From NCBI GenBank assembly GCA_003347645.1, contig QDFX01000002.1, positions 248,001 to 312,000 of the forward strand: a stretch of 64,000 nucleotides of DNA, read 5' to 3'. This document shows, in pieces, positions 7,165 to 22,147 of this stretch. The position numbers and the translations under genes were made by a program. This DNA comes from Rhizobiaceae bacterium CPCC 101076. Its GTDB lineage: Bacteria > Pseudomonadota > Alphaproteobacteria > Rhizobiales > Methylopilaceae. A model generated the notes under the pieces. The model was not told where the DNA came from. It searched no databases and was given only the letters and a program-made list of their open reading frames with translations. Position 1 is the first letter of the stretch. The number at the start of each line of letters is the position of its first letter.

Positions 7165-7189
7165 GTTGATTGTGACATAAAACTGTCAT

Positions 7190-7408
7190 CTAACCGCAGG
7201 CCAAGGGCCCGTTTCGCTCGGAATAACAGCTCACGCCGTGATCCGCGACGAACGTGTCCCAGCGGTGAGCGAGAATGAGCAGCACGATTACCGTCGTCAC
7301 CGCTGCCCAACGCCTCACCACACTGTCCGACCACCAGACGGCAAAAGCTATGAAGACTGCGAATGGTACTAGCCATTCGGCGAATGTTGAAATGCCCACG
7401 GCGAGCAA
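7190..7408 (-). CDS. Small membrane protein of unknown function
   Basis: 72 residues from a TTG at 7408, preceded by an AGGGGG stretch that could act as ribosome-binding site; a GTG three codons later is an alternative. Two hydrophobic helices (about residues 7-26 and 35-47) and a C-terminal tail with two Cys (HGVSCYSERNGPLACG) are visible. No family recognised. The convergent bidirectional terminator 26 bases downstream of its stop supports expression of this strand. It could still be a chance reading frame. Confidence 0.45.
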   Translation of the reverse strand: MLAVGISTFAEWLVPFAVFIAFAVWWSDSVVRRWAAVTTVIVLLILAHRWDTFVADHGVSCYSERNGPLACG

Positions 7409-14106: not shown

Positions 14107-14766
14107 TCAGACGATGCCGCTAGCCCAACCGACCAGTTCACTCAGCACCTGGGACAGCGCCCGGTCGAGCGAGGACGAGGCGGACGAGCCGTTGATCGCA
14201 CCGCCCGCCGGGGCCTGGGCCGAGAACACCCGACCGGACAGGACACGGCCGTCGCGGGTGCTGACGATCTTCGCCGCGATCTCGACACGCGCCTGCGCAC
14301 CGCCGCCGGCATTGATCTCGAAGGTACGGATGTCGGTCAGCAATTGATAATCGCCGGACAGCCTGTCGTCGGAACGGCCGACCGAGCCGATGCGGCCCGC
14401 ATTCTCGAAGCTCTGGACGATGCGGGTCTGCAGCAGTTTCGGCAGCCGGTCGGACCATTGCGAGCCCGGCACATAGCTGACCTGATCGCCGCTGCGAACG
14501 ACCATGCTCTGGGAATCGATCGTCTGGATCGCGGTCGGCTCGGCGACGACGAGGACGCCCTTGCCGGACGCCGCCCTGCCCTGGAATCCCTGCGCGGCGG
14601 CAAGATCGAATGTCGCGTTGGGACGCTCCGCAAGACAACCACCCAGGGCGAGGGCGATCGATGCGACGGCGAGCACACGTCGCGCGGAACCAAGCTCACT
14701 TTGTGTCGGCAGCACTCTGACGTTCTCCAGCCCTGGCCCGATAGCCTTCCCCGATCCGGCCGGCAT
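14107..14766 (-). CDS. ABC-type transport auxiliary lipoprotein
   Basis: 219 residues. The start ATG overlaps the MCE gene stop (TGATG), which fixes it and gives an unusually long 43-residue pre-sequence ending in the lipobox LALGGC, with Cys44 as the lipid-modified residue. The mature part has the ABC_trans_aux/PqiC-like pattern (for example SDRLPKLLQTRIVQSFENAG), so it is expected to be an outer-membrane or periplasm-facing lipoprotein that works with an MCE lipid transporter. It is last in a four-gene operon with permease, ATPase and MCE protein. Confidence 0.85.
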   Translation of the reverse strand: MPAGSGKAIGPGLENVRVLPTQSELGSARRVLAVASIALALGGCLAERPNATFDLAAAQGFQGRAASGKGVLVVAEPTAIQTIDSQSMVVRSGDQVSYVPGSQWSDRLPKLLQTRIVQSFENAGRIGSVGRSDDRLSGDYQLLTDIRTFEINAGGGAQARVEIAAKIVSTRDGRVLSGRVFSAQAPAGGAINGSSASSSLDRALSQVLSELVGWASGIV

Positions 14767-16079
14767 CAGCGGCGCGGAGAGTAGTCCGAAACACCGCCGC
14801 CACCAAACAGGAACCGTTGGGGATTTCGTTCAAGTTCGCGCACCACACGGTCCACCCCGGCGAGAGTTTCCCGACCATTCGCGATAAGTCCACTCAGATC
14901 GCGCAGTCCGGTGCCAGTAAACTTCGTAATGTCACCGGAAAGCGACGCTGTGCGCTTGTCGAGATTGTCGGAAAGGATCCGGATCGACTTCGCAGCTTCG
15001 CGCACTTCATCGAACACGCCCGCGTTCTGACCTTCGCCAAGGAGCGAATCGGCGCGCTGGAGGATGCCGTCGACGCGGACGGAGGCCTTGTTCAGGCGAT
15101 CGGACAGTTCGCGGGCATCGGAGACGATCTCGTCGACCGACGGCCCGTTGCGGGCCAGGGTCTCGGAAAACAAGGTCGCGTTATCGACGACCTTCCTGAT
15201 CTTTTCCGGATCGACCGCGGCGACCACCGACTGGATGCCGGTGAGAGTCGTATTGAGCTTGTCGCTGGCGGCGATCAGGTTCGTCGTCACGTCGCCGGCC
15301 TGGTCAAGCACCACGCCCAGCTTCGGACCCACCGCGCCGAGTTCGATCGCGAACTTCTCCGCACTGCCGACGATATTGGCGACCTTCTGCGGGTCGACCG
15401 CTTTCACGATCTGACGCGCATCGAGCGTCAGTTCCTGCAACGGCCCGGCGACGGCCGAAACCGCCTTCGCCATCTCGCCGGTCGCGGCCAGGAAGTCGTC
15501 GATGCCGTCCGAGTTCTTGGCCAGCGCGTCGGTGAATTTCTGGACGTTGGCAATCGACTGGTTGATCGGGCCCGTATTGGTCTCGACCACCTTCTGCACC
15601 TGATTGAGGATGCCGTCGGCGCGTTCCATGATCTTGCGGGCGCCTTCCATCACGCTGGCATAGCCGCCCGGCTCCGCAACGATCGTAGGGAGGTCGCCCG
15701 CAATCGACGCCGCCAGCACCGGGGCATCGTTCTTGCCGCCCTCCAGCATCACGGAGGACACGCCGGTAAGGCCCTGCGACTCCAGCCGCGCCTTGGTGTC
15801 CGTCCGCACCGGAACGCCCGGGTCGACCGCGATCCTCGTGTAGATCTTGCCCGGCTCGCTCGACGAGAACTGGATTTCCGTCACCTCGCCCACCGTCAGG
15901 CCGTTGAACAGCACGGCTGAGCCCCGCGTCAGGCCGGATACCGAGCCCTCGAACACCACGCGATAGGATGTCCGGTCGCTCGAAGAATTGCCGCCGAACC
16001 ACCAGACGAACCCGAACGCACCGACGAGCACCGCGAGCGTGAAGAAGCCGATCAGGACGTGATTTGCGCGCGTTTCCAT
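14766..16079 (-). CDS. MCE-domain lipid transport protein (MlaD-like)
   Basis: 437 residues: an N-terminal transmembrane helix (about 8-28), an MCE domain (about 37-115, including FEGSVSGLTRGSAVLFNGLT), and a long C-terminal helical region rich in Asp, Val and Leu. In Mla/Mce systems the MCE protein forms a hexameric periplasmic ring that carries phospholipid between the inner-membrane ABC transporter and the outer membrane. The long helical tail is more like alphaproteobacterial and actinobacterial MCE proteins than short E. coli MlaD. It is three bases downstream of the ATPase gene and overlaps the lipoprotein gene. Confidence 0.9.
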   Translation of the reverse strand: METRANHVLIGFFTLAVLVGAFGFVWWFGGNSSSDRTSYRVVFEGSVSGLTRGSAVLFNGLTVGEVTEIQFSSSEPGKIYTRIAVDPGVPVRTDTKARLESQGLTGVSSVMLEGGKNDAPVLAASIAGDLPTIVAEPGGYASVMEGARKIMERADGILNQVQKVVETNTGPINQSIANVQKFTDALAKNSDGIDDFLAATGEMAKAVSAVAGPLQELTLDARQIVKAVDPQKVANIVGSAEKFAIELGAVGPKLGVVLDQAGDVTTNLIAASDKLNTTLTGIQSVVAAVDPEKIRKVVDNATLFSETLARNGPSVDEIVSDARELSDRLNKASVRVDGILQRADSLLGEGQNAGVFDEVREAAKSIRILSDNLDKRTASLSGDITKFTGTGLRDLSGLIANGRETLAGVDRVVRELERNPQRFLFGGGGVSDYSPRR

Positions 16080-16082
16080 CGA

Positions 16083-16895
16083 TCAGCTCAATCCCTGCGC
16101 GGCCCGCGCACGCGGTCCTTGGAAATAGTCCTTCAGCCACGGATGAGTGGCCTTCCGCATTTCGGAGAACGGTCCTTCCGCGAGCACCTTCTTCTCACCC
16201 AGCGCCGCGATCCGGTCGCAGGCGCGCGAAAGGCTGTCGAGGTCATGGGTTACCATGAAAACGGTGAGCCCCAAAGTTCGCCTCAGCGTCAGGATCAGGT
16301 CGTCGAAGTCCTGCGCGCCGATCGGATCGAGACCGGAGGTCGGCTCGTCCAGGAAGATCAGTTCGGGGTCGAGGGCCAGGGCTCGCGCCAGGGCCGCACG
16401 CTTGATCATGCCGCCGGAAAGCTCCGACGGGTAGAGATCGGCGGCCCGCGGCTTCAGGCCGACAAGTTCGAGCTTCAGCATCGCGATCTCTTCGAGGAGA
16501 CGCGGCGAGAAATTGGTGTGCTCGCGGAGCGGCACCTGGATGTTCTGCTTCACGGTCAGCGACGAGAACAGCGCGCCCTGCTGGAACAGCACGCCCCAGC
16601 GCCGTTCCACCGCCAGACCTTCCTTCAGCGAAGCCCTGTCGAGATCGACGCCGAACACCTCGACCGTGCCGCGCCTCTTCGGGACGAGTCCGATGATCGT
16701 GCGGGTCAGCACCGATTTGCCGGTGCCCGATGCACCTACAACGCCGAGGATTTCGCCCCGCCAGACATCGAGATTGAGCCCGTCGACGATCAGCCGCTCT
16801 CCGAAACCCGCCGCGAGATCGCGGACGCGGATGATCGCTTCCCGGCCGGGCACGGGTTCCGAGTGTGGGAGGTAGTATTCTTCGGTCAGTGCCAT
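16083..16895 (-). CDS. Mla-type ABC transporter ATP-binding protein (MlaF-like)
   Basis: 270 residues from ATG 16895, two bases after the permease stop. Walker A GASGTGKS is at 54-61, the Q-loop FQQG near 104, the signature LSGGM at 159-163, Walker B ELIFLDEP at 178-185 and the H-loop His217. LSGGM with a following Ile-Lys-Arg is characteristic of MlaF/Ttg2A-like ATPases. It would power phospholipid movement by the STAS-MlaE permease. A much longer frame extends upstream through the permease gene but is only the shadow of that gene. Confidence 0.92.
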   Translation of the reverse strand: MALTEEYYLPHSEPVPGREAIIRVRDLAAGFGERLIVDGLNLDVWRGEILGVVGASGTGKSVLTRTIIGLVPKRRGTVEVFGVDLDRASLKEGLAVERRWGVLFQQGALFSSLTVKQNIQVPLREHTNFSPRLLEEIAMLKLELVGLKPRAADLYPSELSGGMIKRAALARALALDPELIFLDEPTSGLDPIGAQDFDDLILTLRRTLGLTVFMVTHDLDSLSRACDRIAALGEKKVLAEGPFSEMRKATHPWLKDYFQGPRARAAQGLS

Positions 16896-16897
16896 CG

Positions 16898-18043
16898 TCA
16901 CAGACCGATTGCAGCGAAGAAGATGGCGAAAATGCCGTCGAGCACGATCACCATGAAGATCGACTTCACGACGGAGGCTGTCGTGCGGATGCCGAGCGAC
17001 TCCGCCGAACCCTCGACTTTCATGCCCTCGATGGTCGCAATCAGGCCGATCACAAGCCCCATGAACGGCGCCTTGATCATGCCGACCAGGAAGGAATCCA
17101 TGGTCAAAGTCTCGTGCAGACGGGCGAGGAAGACATCGAGGCTGATCCCGCCATAGACCAACGCGACCACGCAGCCGCCGGCCAATGCCGCGATCTCCGC
17201 GAGAAAAGCGAGCAATGTCAAGGAGATGATCAGCGCCAGCATACGCGGCAGGATCAGCACCTCGATATCGTCGAGCGCCATGACGCGGATCGCGTCGATC
17301 TCCTCGCGCATCTTCATTGAGCCGATCTCGGCGGTGAAGGCGGAGCCGGAGCGACCAGCCAGCATGATCGCCGTCAGGAGCACGCCAAGTTCGCGCAGAG
17401 CGAGGATGCCGATGAGGTCGACGACGAAGATCGTCGCGCCGAAATATCGAAGCTGGAAAATGCTCTGCTGCGAGACGATCGCGCCGACCAGGAACGAGAT
17501 CAGGCAGATGATCGGCACCGCGCGCAGTCCAACCAGTTCGAGATGATGGACGAAGCTCGTGAACCGGAACTTCGAGGGATGCACGATCACCCGGCCGAGC
17601 GTCACCACGATCGCGCCGAGGAACGACATCCACGCCTTGAGGTCATTGCCGGCATTGATGACGCCGCGGCCGATATCGGCGACAAGCATCAGCGCGGCGC
17701 TGCCCTTCTTCGCCGGTGGCACACTTTCGCGCGGCGTGTCGGTAGCCACCGCATCGATCAGGATGCGTTGCTCCGGCCGTCCGCCCTCGATAACGCTCAC
17801 CCCGCCGCTGGCGACGATCATCCGACGCAGACGGTCGAGCAGCAACGCGCCAACCGTATCGACCCGCGATACCTGTTCGAGATCGAGCGCGACCTGCCGG
17901 CCAGCGAGTTGCTTCGCCGTTTCCTCGACCAGTTCCTCCAGGTCGTCGGCGTGGGTCGCCGTCCATTCGCCGGAAAGACGCAATCTGTGCGCCTGCCCCA
18001 GCGAGGACGACACAAGACCCGGCCCGATTGCCGCTGTGCTCAA
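16898..18043 (-). CDS. MlaE-type ABC permease with fused N-terminal STAS domain
   Basis: 381 residues: a STAS domain at about 15-105 (DLEQVSRVDTVGALLLDRL resembles the anti-sigma-antagonist core) fused to a five- to six-helix MlaE/YrbE permease (about 130-381, with the conserved REIDAIRVMALDD-like cytoplasmic loop). In E. coli the STAS protein MlaB is a separate subunit; here it is joined to the permease, a known arrangement in alphaproteobacteria. First gene of the operon; shares an 84-base divergent region with dgcA. Confidence 0.9.
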   Translation of the reverse strand: MSTAAIGPGLVSSSLGQAHRLRLSGEWTATHADDLEELVEETAKQLAGRQVALDLEQVSRVDTVGALLLDRLRRMIVASGGVSVIEGGRPEQRILIDAVATDTPRESVPPAKKGSAALMLVADIGRGVINAGNDLKAWMSFLGAIVVTLGRVIVHPSKFRFTSFVHHLELVGLRAVPIICLISFLVGAIVSQQSIFQLRYFGATIFVVDLIGILALRELGVLLTAIMLAGRSGSAFTAEIGSMKMREEIDAIRVMALDDIEVLILPRMLALIISLTLLAFLAEIAALAGGCVVALVYGGISLDVFLARLHETLTMDSFLVGMIKAPFMGLVIGLIATIEGMKVEGSAESLGIRTTASVVKSIFMVIVLDGIFAIFFAAIGL

Positions 18044-19143: not shown

Positions 19144-20223
19144 TTGAGCTTAATTCTCCAGGAAGATTCCCACGATTCGGCGGCGGCGACCGCCTGGAGG
19201 TTGGTAGAGCGGATGGAGCGGCGCCCGCCCATGCCAGACGAGGATTATGAGGCCATCGAGGCCGCCGTGATGGACACGGCGCGCGGCCGCTGGTTCCTCG
19301 CCGAATTCGCGCGTCGCAACCGCAACGCCGACACCGCACTGCTACTTGATGCGATCGAGCGCATCGAGCGGCTGATGGCCCTCCGCCCCGCGCCCCCGGC
19401 GCCTCTCGCGCTGCCCTCGCCCGTAGAGACAAACCCGGTGCTTGCAGCTCTGGCGGCTCAAGAACAGGCGCCAACCCTCGCCGCGCCACAGTTGCGGCCG
19501 GAGCCGATCACGGCTCAACCACCAGCGGAGCCTCCCGCCCACTCCCCGGTCGCCGCCGCATCGGAACCCGCTGCCGCCTCTATTCCGCTGGCCTCCGTGG
19601 AAGCGCCTCCGCCGGCGCCGCAACATGTCGCCGTCCAAAAACCGGCCGAACCGCCTGCGCCTCCCATTCCTGTCGCAGCGTTGCCCGAAGTCGTCGAAGT
19701 GCCTCCGGCCGCGGTCGCCTCTCAAGAGGGACCGGAGCCCGCGCCCGTCATATCGTTCGACGTCGGAGAGCCCGAATGGTTCGACGACATCGTCTGGGGG
19801 CCTGTGCCTGGCGATACGGGGCCCGCGCAAACGGTGGCCGACGCCGAACTGATCGCTGTCGATGCCAACCCCGCTCCCGCGCGCACCGAACTCGCGCACA
19901 TCGCGACGGCAGATATCGCGGAGATCGAAGCGCCTTCGATAGCGGCAGAACTCGCGCCCAACTCCGTTCCCGCCGTCTCGATTGAGGCGGTCCGGGCCGA
20001 GGCCGTGCCGGTTCAGGCCATCGCCTCGGAGCCGGATCCCGTCGCCGAAGAACCGGCGAATGTGTCTTTCATCGCTCCGGAAAGCCGACTGATCGAGGCC
20101 GCCGCGCCGCCCCTTGCCGAGGCCGAGATCACCCCGCTCCCGTCCGGCTCCTCGCCGCCGCCGGTGGACCCGGCCGATATCGACGCGATGAGCTTCGAAC
20201 TGAAATCGGTCTATTTCGCCTAG
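19144..20223 (+). CDS. Pro/Ala-rich protein with conserved N-terminal domain, unknown
   Basis: 359 residues if the TTG at 19144 is used; an ATG at 19213 (residue 24) is the alternative. Residues about 30-80 form a compact charged helical block (YEAIEAAVMDTARGRWFLAE then ARRNRNADTALLLDAIERIE) that I associate with conserved hypothetical proteins of alphaproteobacteria. The remaining about 280 residues are a low-complexity Pro, Ala, Glu and Val tail with a Trp-containing island (EPEWFDDIVWGPV) and a final MSFELKSVYFA. No signal peptide or membrane segment. Its stop shares the tetranucleotide CTAG with the stop of the convergent glycosyltransferase gene. Confidence 0.7.
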   Translation: MSLILQEDSHDSAAATAWRLVERMERRPPMPDEDYEAIEAAVMDTARGRWFLAEFARRNRNADTALLLDAIERIERLMALRPAPPAPLALPSPVETNPVLAALAAQEQAPTLAAPQLRPEPITAQPPAEPPAHSPVAAASEPAAASIPLASVEAPPPAPQHVAVQKPAEPPAPPIPVAALPEVVEVPPAAVASQEGPEPAPVISFDVGEPEWFDDIVWGPVPGDTGPAQTVADAELIAVDANPAPARTELAHIATADIAEIEAPSIAAELAPNSVPAVSIEAVRAEAVPVQAIASEPDPVAEEPANVSFIAPESRLIEAAAPPLAEAEITPLPSGSSPPPVDPADIDAMSFELKSVYFA

Positions 20224-21254
20224 GCCGTCTGGGGCGCTGTTTCGGCCTGCGGTCCCTCTTTCGCCATCTCCATTTCGCGGATGAAGATGCGGGCGCATTC
20301 CTGCCAGCTGTGTTCAAGGGCAAGGGCTCGCGCGTCTTCGCGCTTCAGCTCCAGCGCAGCGAGCGCCGCAACCCTGAGATCATGATCGAGCGCTCCCGCC
20401 TTGGTTCCGTGCAGCACGTCGATCGGTCCCGTCACGGGGTAGGCCGCTACCGGCACCCCGCTCGCGAGCGCCTCCAGGATAACGATGCCGAAGGTGTCGG
20501 TGAGGCTCGGGAACACGAAGACATCTGCCGACGAGAAGATCTCAGCTAGTTCCTCGCCGGTCTTCTTGCCCAGGAAAACGGCGGCGGGATAGCGCGTCTT
20601 CAGCATGTCCAGCGCCGGTCCCTCGCCGACCACCACCTTGGTACCGGGCAGGTCCAGCGACAGGAAAGCTTCGAGGTTCTTCTCCACCGCGACGCGACCA
20701 ACCGACAGGAAGATCGGCCCCGGCAGATCGAGCACCCGCTTCTCGCGCGGCCGGAACATCTCTGAGTCCACGCCGCGCGTCCAAAGACGGACCTTGTTGA
20801 AGCCCCGCCCCTCCAGTTCACGCGCCAGCGAACGCGTCGCGACCAGTGTCCCCCGTCCCGCATTGTGGAAGCGACGCAGGAAAGCGTAGCTCCAGCTTTC
20901 CGGCACCGGCAGGCGCGCGCGCAGATATTCCGGGAAGCGGGTGTGATAGCTCGTCGTGAAGCTCCACCTGCGGTTCAGGCAGGCACGCCGCGCCGCCTGT
21001 CCTAGCGGCCCTTCTGTCGCGATATGCAGATGGTCCGGGGCGAATTTCTTGATGCGTACCGCCACGGCTCCCGGCGGCGTCATCGCCAGGCGGATTTCCG
21101 GATAGGTCGGCATAGGAATGGTCCGGAACATATCCGGCGTCAGGAACAGGACGTCGTGTCCCATCGCCCGCACCTCGTCGGCCACCCGCTCCAGAGTACG
21201 CACCACGCCGTTCACCTGGGGATGCCAGGCGTCCGTGACGATCAGGATTCTCAT
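20220..21254 (-). CDS. agt: GT4 glycosyltransferase, Agt-like (glycolipid synthesis)
   Basis: 344 residues of a GT-B family 4 glycosyltransferase. The N-terminal DAWHPQVNGVVRTLE glycine loop, the mid-protein SVGRVAVEKNLEAFL sugar-nucleotide region and the C-terminal E-x7-E-type element in SLTDTFGIVILEALASG are present. It follows a PlcP-like phosphoesterase gene by 25 bases. In many alphaproteobacteria this pair makes phosphorus-free glycolipids: PlcP releases diacylglycerol from phospholipids and Agt adds glucose or glucuronic acid during phosphate shortage. The family call is firm; the lipid acceptor is inferred from the neighbour. Confidence 0.82.
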   Translation of the reverse strand: MRILIVTDAWHPQVNGVVRTLERVADEVRAMGHDVLFLTPDMFRTIPMPTYPEIRLAMTPPGAVAVRIKKFAPDHLHIATEGPLGQAARRACLNRRWSFTTSYHTRFPEYLRARLPVPESWSYAFLRRFHNAGRGTLVATRSLARELEGRGFNKVRLWTRGVDSEMFRPREKRVLDLPGPIFLSVGRVAVEKNLEAFLSLDLPGTKVVVGEGPALDMLKTRYPAAVFLGKKTGEELAEIFSSADVFVFPSLTDTFGIVILEALASGVPVAAYPVTGPIDVLHGTKAGALDHDLRVAALAALELKREDARALALEHSWQECARIFIREMEMAKEGPQAETAPQTA

Positions 21255-21279
21255 GGTGCGTCCTGCTGGCGGCGCTCGG

Positions 21280-22116
21280 TCACGCCGCCGCTGTCTGGGT
21301 CCCTGCCGCCGTTTCCAGCTCGGCAGCGGCGTCTTCCTGAATCAGACGGAGCGAGCGATTCCACCGGATGATCTCGAACGTGCCGTCATAGTTTTCGGCA
21401 ACGGCGGTGCAGCTTTCAACCCAGTCGCCCGTATTCACGTACCGGATGCCGCTCGGCATATCGCGCATCGCCGCATGATGGATATGCCCACAGATCACGC
21501 CCTGCGCGCCCTGCCGCAGCGCCTCACCGGAGAGCGCGTCTTCGAATTCGCCGATGAAGTTGACGGCGTTCTTCACCTTCAGCTTCGCCCAGGCCGACAG
21601 CGACCAATAGCGCAGGCCGAGGCGACGGCGGATCATGTTGATGTAGGTGTTGATCGTCAGCGCGGTGACATAGGCCCAGTCGCCGAGCAGCGCGAGCCAG
21701 CGGGCGTGGCGAACGACCATGTCGAAAATGTCGCCGTGGATGACGAGATAGCGCGTGCCGTCCACCGCCTCGTGAATCGCGGTCTCGGCGACCTCGATGC
21801 CGCCGAAGTGCGAGCCGTAGTAATCGCGAAGGAACTCGTCGTGGTTGCCGGGGATGTAGATCATCCGGGCACCGGCGCGTCCCTTGCGAAGCAGCTTCTG
21901 CACCACGTCGTTATGCTTTTGCGGCCAGTACCAGCTCTGTTGAAGCCGCCACCCGTCGACGATGTCACCGACGAGGTAGATGGTGTCGGCGTCGTGGACC
22001 CTCAGGAAATCAAGCAGCAGGTCTGCCTGACAACCTTTGGTTCCAAGATGGACGTCTGAAATGAACAGCGTCCGTACCCGGCGGGGCTGGAGTCGTGCAG
22101 TAGTCATGGCAGCCAT
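21280..22116 (-). CDS. plcP: Calcineurin-like phosphoesterase, PlcP-like phospholipase C
   Basis: 278 residues from ATG 22116 (a TTG one codon earlier and an ATG at 22107 are alternatives; none has a clear ribosome-binding site). The metallophosphoesterase ligands are complete: D21-x-H23 (DVHLG), D51 (GDIVD), N91-H92-D93 (GNHDE), H127 (HGD) and H211-x-H213 (GHIHH). Similar proteins are often labelled LpxH-like UDP-diacylglucosamine diphosphatases. The following agt gene argues for the PlcP subgroup, which in Sinorhizobium degrades membrane phospholipids under phosphate limitation. A Pho-box-like half site lies upstream. LpxH-like activity cannot be excluded. Confidence 0.75.
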   Translation of the reverse strand: MAAMTTARLQPRRVRTLFISDVHLGTKGCQADLLLDFLRVHDADTIYLVGDIVDGWRLQQSWYWPQKHNDVVQKLLRKGRAGARMIYIPGNHDEFLRDYYGSHFGGIEVAETAIHEAVDGTRYLVIHGDIFDMVVRHARWLALLGDWAYVTALTINTYINMIRRRLGLRYWSLSAWAKLKVKNAVNFIGEFEDALSGEALRQGAQGVICGHIHHAAMRDMPSGIRYVNTGDWVESCTAVAENYDGTFEIIRWNRSLRLIQEDAAAELETAAGTQTAAA

Positions 22117-22129
22117 CAATCATGCTTAC

Positions 22130-22147
22130 TGCGCAGGATTGTGACAG
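22130..22147 (-). promoter_or_regulatory. Possible degenerate Pho box upstream of plcP
   Basis: Read on the minus strand, a perfect PhoB half site CTGTCAC (22141-22147) is followed by a four-base spacer and CTGCGCA, which matches the second half site only at CTG. The spacing fits PhoB, the second half is poor, and the position 14-31 bases upstream of the start is close. Suggestive because phosphate control is expected for plcP-agt, but weak. Confidence 0.3.

Follow-up and report, generated by a model that had tools for sequence, protein, structure and literature searches.

A plcP-agt operon for probable phosphate-sparing lipid remodelling in Rhizobiaceae bacterium CPCC 101076

The stretch of 64,000 nucleotides of Rhizobiaceae bacterium CPCC 101076 analysed here (the window) carries on its minus strand a phosphoesterase gene followed by a glycosyltransferase gene, which very probably constitute a plcP-agt operon encoding the enzymes of a phosphate-sparing lipid pathway; control of this copy by PhoB is likely as well, with somewhat less confidence. 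The lipid-remodelling reading had been proposed in the initial annotation, and the tests performed favor PlcP and Agt and speak against LpxH. The plcP-agt system is already known, and the locus is an ordinary, typical example of it. Its elements are the following.

21280..22119, minus strand: plcP, calcineurin-like phosphoesterase of the phospholipase-C type; a 279-codon open reading frame (ORF) counted from TTG, with the probable start at ATG 22107
20220..21254, minus strand: agt, probable GT4 diacylglycerol glycosyltransferase; a 344-codon ORF with Glyco_transf_4 and Glycos_transf_1 over cut-off
21255..21279, minus strand: gap of 25 nt between the plcP stop codon and the agt ATG
22130..22147, minus strand: Pho-box-like site CTGTCACAATCCTGCGCA, second half degenerate

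The two ORFs and their spacing lie where the initial annotation had placed them, and the 25-nt gap is consistent with a single transcript. ATG 22107, from which a protein of 275 amino acids would be made, is the likelier start of plcP because four members of the genus align there. Upstream of plcP and on the same strand lies thiD (337.3 bits on the HMP-P kinase model, cut-off 204.95), and the convergent ORF downstream of agt has no family match in NCBIfam or Pfam.

The sole Pfam assignment of the plcP product is the superfamily PF00149 (43.3 bits, cut-off 21.5). The full active site attributed to it is present: D22, H24, D52, N92, H128, H212, and H214 (in TTG-based numbering), which we take to be the metal-binding residues, are invariant in an alignment of 15 rows that leaves out locus L090, where a stop falls within the stretch. 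The closest named matches of the protein are LpxH models and LpxH crystal structures, and the warning that it would commonly be misannotated as LpxH is therefore sound. The same matches and the shared superfamily are what favor the alternative of an LpxH-type lipid A enzyme that stands beside a sugar transferase by chance, an alternative which is nonetheless highly improbable. On the two LpxH models the protein scores 48.1 bits (cut-off 134) and 39.7 bits (cut-off 190.35), far below both curated cut-offs, whereas E. coli LpxH, the positive control, passes both with 364.3 and 388.9 bits. Its motif reads GNHDE, as opposed to the GNRDF of E. coli LpxH; among 141 homologous stretches (the locus itself counted three times) GNHD occurs in 140 and GNRD in none, the sole exception being GHHD in locus L166. 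On the strength of the model scores, the motif and the control, the LpxH identity was rejected.

Sequence identity and genome content point in the same direction. PlcP is 52.6–79.6% identical to 17 compared relatives, and its identity to E. coli LpxH is 23.7% across an alignment of 215 positions. Also counting against LpxH, the genome carries an LpxI gene flanked by lpxA and lpxB, which both exceed their cut-offs; the LpxI gene passes the Pfam cut-offs for LpxI_N (90.3 bits) and LpxI_C (131.9 bits) and reaches 198.8 bits on the NCBIfam LpxI model, below its cut-off of 400. Nine PF00149 matches occur in the genome, of which six paralogues were compared for motif and identity and one entered a tree with 18 PlcP rows and E. 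coli LpxH. The PlcP rows stay together, apart from LpxH, with a support of 92/91, below the starred level of the tool; the phylogeny proposed as a check thus gives the expected grouping, but across very long branches to LpxH and the paralogue, on which the tool issues a warning and which make the tree weak on this point. Neither NCBIfam nor Pfam provided a match to a curated PlcP or Agt model, so that the identity of the pair rests on the failed rival models, the motifs, the synteny and the published relatives.

The agt product is a two-domain GT4 enzyme. As GT4 is a broad family and 21 NCBIfam models for many acceptors match the protein weakly, another acceptor might be considered, for instance ceramide or a cell-surface polysaccharide. 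This is improbable in view of the donor, catalytic and acceptor-site residues described below and of the conserved linkage to plcP, the predicted source of diacylglycerol. The segments GRVAVEKN and FPSLTDTFG fit the published GRVAXEKN and FPSXTDTFG, and the His-Asp catalytic pair is represented by H104 and D253. In the diacylglycerol enzyme GTcp of Pelagibacter (SAR11), 14 residues of the donor, catalytic and acceptor sites matter by mutation (PMC8231724). All 14, placed by eye on the motifs published there, are present in the window protein, which thereby resembles GTcp in its functional residues as well as in both UDP-sugar motifs: G16, G82, G85, and H104 have the GTcp numbers, and T159, R160, R187, K192, D253, T254, F255, G256, E261, and W317 lie three lower. 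Diacylglycerol is the probable acceptor, and no second close copy of agt was found in the genome, where the best other match scores 32.5 bits.

PlcP occurs in 32 of 41 genomes of relatives, that of CPCC 101076 included, and in 71 of the 190 genomes of a class sample. A glycosyltransferase match adjoins plcP in 29 of 30 order loci (the own locus included; L033 is without one, L035 has only pieces) and, for the class, in 28 of the best 29 (the exception being L079), the order loci omitting two PlcP-positive genomes (G018 and G019) and the class loci omitting lower-ranked matches; this agrees with the initial argument that the neighbor points to PlcP. In locus L034 (relative G017) a stop codon lies inside plcP while the adjacent agt matches over its length, either through decay or through a sequencing error. 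For named organisms the best 80 of 588 confirmed loci were considered, nearly all of which presumably belong to Hyphomicrobiales, the order in which the window would accordingly be placed. The match lies beside plcP in 49 of these 80, among them the Methylocystis (L164) and Methylocapsa (L178) loci with the plcP-agt pair, and at E 1e-10 none was found in the other 31. By title, most of the 31 are Rhizobium, Agrobacterium, Ensifer, Allorhizobium, Martelella, and Rhizobiales isolates; Nitrobacter winogradskyi, Aureimonas frigidaquae, and Rhodovulum sp. PH10 also belong here.

The statement that the pair operates in Sinorhizobium and in marine alphaproteobacteria can consequently be kept in part. 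For the former it is imprecise, since the named loci that lack the glycosyltransferase are mostly those of Rhizobium, Agrobacterium, Ensifer, and their kin: the Rhizobiaceae plcP genes are orthologous to that of the window (about 60–70% identical at the protein level), but the loci of Ensifer (L176), Agrobacterium (L144, L162), and Rhizobium show no match to the window glycosyltransferase at E 1e-10 within about 3 kb, whereas in the window agt is adjacent. For marine members it agrees with a survey in which plcP and agt adjoin in SAR11 and Erythrobacter and Agt is the commonest plcP neighbor of marine isolates, in >25% of them (PMC4796936).

Upstream of plcP a perfect PhoB half site with a degenerate second half had been reported, and this description is accurate: CTGTCAC at 22141–22147 (minus strand) is paired with CTGCGCA, so that, with either pyrimidine accepted at position 7 of both halves, 10 of the 14 consensus positions are matched (p = 0.23 in the 170-base region). 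As the consensus count is indecisive for this locus, a matrix was refined on 106 plcP upstream regions of order relatives and named loci, with the window's genus excluded; these regions include mutual close relatives and are thus not independent. The matrix scoring that had been suggested gives 9.66 bits (p = 0.018 in 170 bases), in favor of the site, although the consensus alone does not single it out and the copy is the weakest among four genus members, the relatives L010, L011, and L012 reaching 13.62, 18.40, and 15.50 bits (p = 0.0025, 0.0005, and 0.001) at the homologous site. Against the site, nine further places among the 127,966 window positions equal or surpass its score.

The matrix, whose first half is strong and whose second is softer, finds a site in 98 of the 106 loci; a soft second half is thus common to the group and not a feature of the window locus alone. 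At least 11 of 14 consensus positions occur in 60 of the 106 real upstream regions, whereas each of eight shuffled sets gives 0 to 3 such regions; the reversed pattern reaches this level in 6 regions and the opposite strand in 8. Refinement from the reversed and other-strand seeds converges on the same 98 loci, which argues for one dominant conserved element, its nature as a Pho box being supported by the contrast of 60 with 0 to 3. Four of these eight sets of shuffled regions also yield sites upon refinement, in 43 to 61 loci, with 8.8–9.3 bits of information versus 16.8 bits for the real set and a spread of the middle half of positions of 77–92 bases versus 8. In the class sample the consensus gives p < 0.05 in 8 of 29 loci, which confines the demonstration of the element to the order. 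Genome-wide, the consensus with up to three mismatches has 134 matches versus 71 for the backward pattern, so that only near-perfect matches mean much by themselves. Elsewhere in the window, two overlapping Pho-like sites at 7172–7200, with a hairpin-like inverted repeat directly before them and no convincing gene downstream, probably arose by chance and were set aside.

The softness of the second half admits a variant, compatible with the enzymes proposed, in which the operon is genuine and strong PhoB control has been lost through decay of that half. The poor consensus fit and the lowest score of the genus agree with it, but the first half matches the consensus perfectly, keeps the register and stands as far from the ATG as in the three genus relatives, and the held-out matrix recovers the site; such a loss is accordingly rather unlikely, and retained control by PhoB is the preferred reading. 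The distance in question, from the box to the conserved ATG, is 21–22 nt in all four genus members. Among 78 scored loci (these four included), which needed a site of 6 bits and an in-frame ATG after the box and whose start codons were chosen by rule, 14 have gaps of 20–24 nt and none a shorter one, the remainder being broadly spread and fullest at 45–69 nt. Shine-Dalgarno-like sequences accompany 4 of 16 gaps of up to 26 nt versus 33 of 62 longer ones. In classical Pho promoters the transcript starts about 21–22 nt from the box. On these spacings a PhoB-driven leaderless plcP message may be imagined for the window's genus and, independently, for Bradyrhizobium and a few more, but the proposal is doubtful: starts were assigned by rule, and genus member L010 carries GGAGG immediately ahead of its ATG, beyond the region scored.

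What the sequences show directly are the gene families, the spacing within the operon, the conserved pairing, the genomic surroundings and a homologous Pho-like site; reactions, lipids and induction at low phosphate can be put forward by analogy with studied relatives. Upon phosphate limitation, PhoB would activate plcP-agt from the site at 22130–22147; PlcP would hydrolyse membrane phospholipids to diacylglycerol and a phospho-head group from which phosphate could be recovered; and Agt would add glucose or glucuronic acid from a UDP-sugar to the diacylglycerol, yielding MGDG and GADG. In Methylosinus trichosporium OB3b, whose locus by its published description shares gene order, adjacency and protein families with that of the window, deletion of plcP-agt removed GADG (PMC9239053). 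In Pseudomonas aeruginosa, too, plcP adjoins an agt gene and a Pho box precedes them; its plcP mutant had no MGDG and less GADG, and agt mutants each lost one of the two lipids, Agt1 and Agt2 serving one sugar each (PMC8528852), in contrast to the genome of the window, where no second close copy was found.

The genome offers a suitable context for such a pathway. It encodes PhoB (344.9 bits, cut-off 296.2) and a pstSCAB operon, each gene of which passes at least one curated cut-off and in front of which there is a 14/14 Pho box. A DUF3419 gene (PF11899, 372.7 bits), which we take to represent the BtaA family, lies on another contig, C17, where this btaA-type gene shares L182:1961–3873 with a methyltransferase gene that overlaps it and would fit btaB. 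Upstream of the btaA ORF, at a distance of 40 nt, there is a 12/14 Pho-like site, which scores only 7.59 on the plcP matrix. The btaA/btaB-like pair is a possible second phosphate-free lipid route, and UDP-glucuronate could come from two full-length nucleotide-sugar dehydrogenases that exceed the cut-off of their family, the family being broader than that function. Given these genes, the diacylglycerol released by PlcP could feed glycolipids through Agt and could also enter a betaine-lipid route of the BtaAB type encoded elsewhere in the genome.

Other lipid genes were recorded as well. OlsB is present, over its cut-off; on contig C2 (L183:542–3690) olsB is arranged tail to tail with a 738-amino-acid ORF bearing acyltransferase and AMP-binding domains, which possibly does OlsA-like work. 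A few kb downstream of agt, at window positions 14766–18043, a probable lipid-transport operon comprises an MCE-family gene (below the MlaD cut-off), an ATPase-like ORF and, passing the TIGR00056 cut-off, a permease gene of the MlaE family.

The existing picture of the pathway is unchanged by this locus. The phosphate-sparing operon is common among the sampled relatives, the loci of Rhizobium, Agrobacterium, and Ensifer lack the link to agt, and the annotation trap is a real one, as the closest named matches of PlcP are LpxH.
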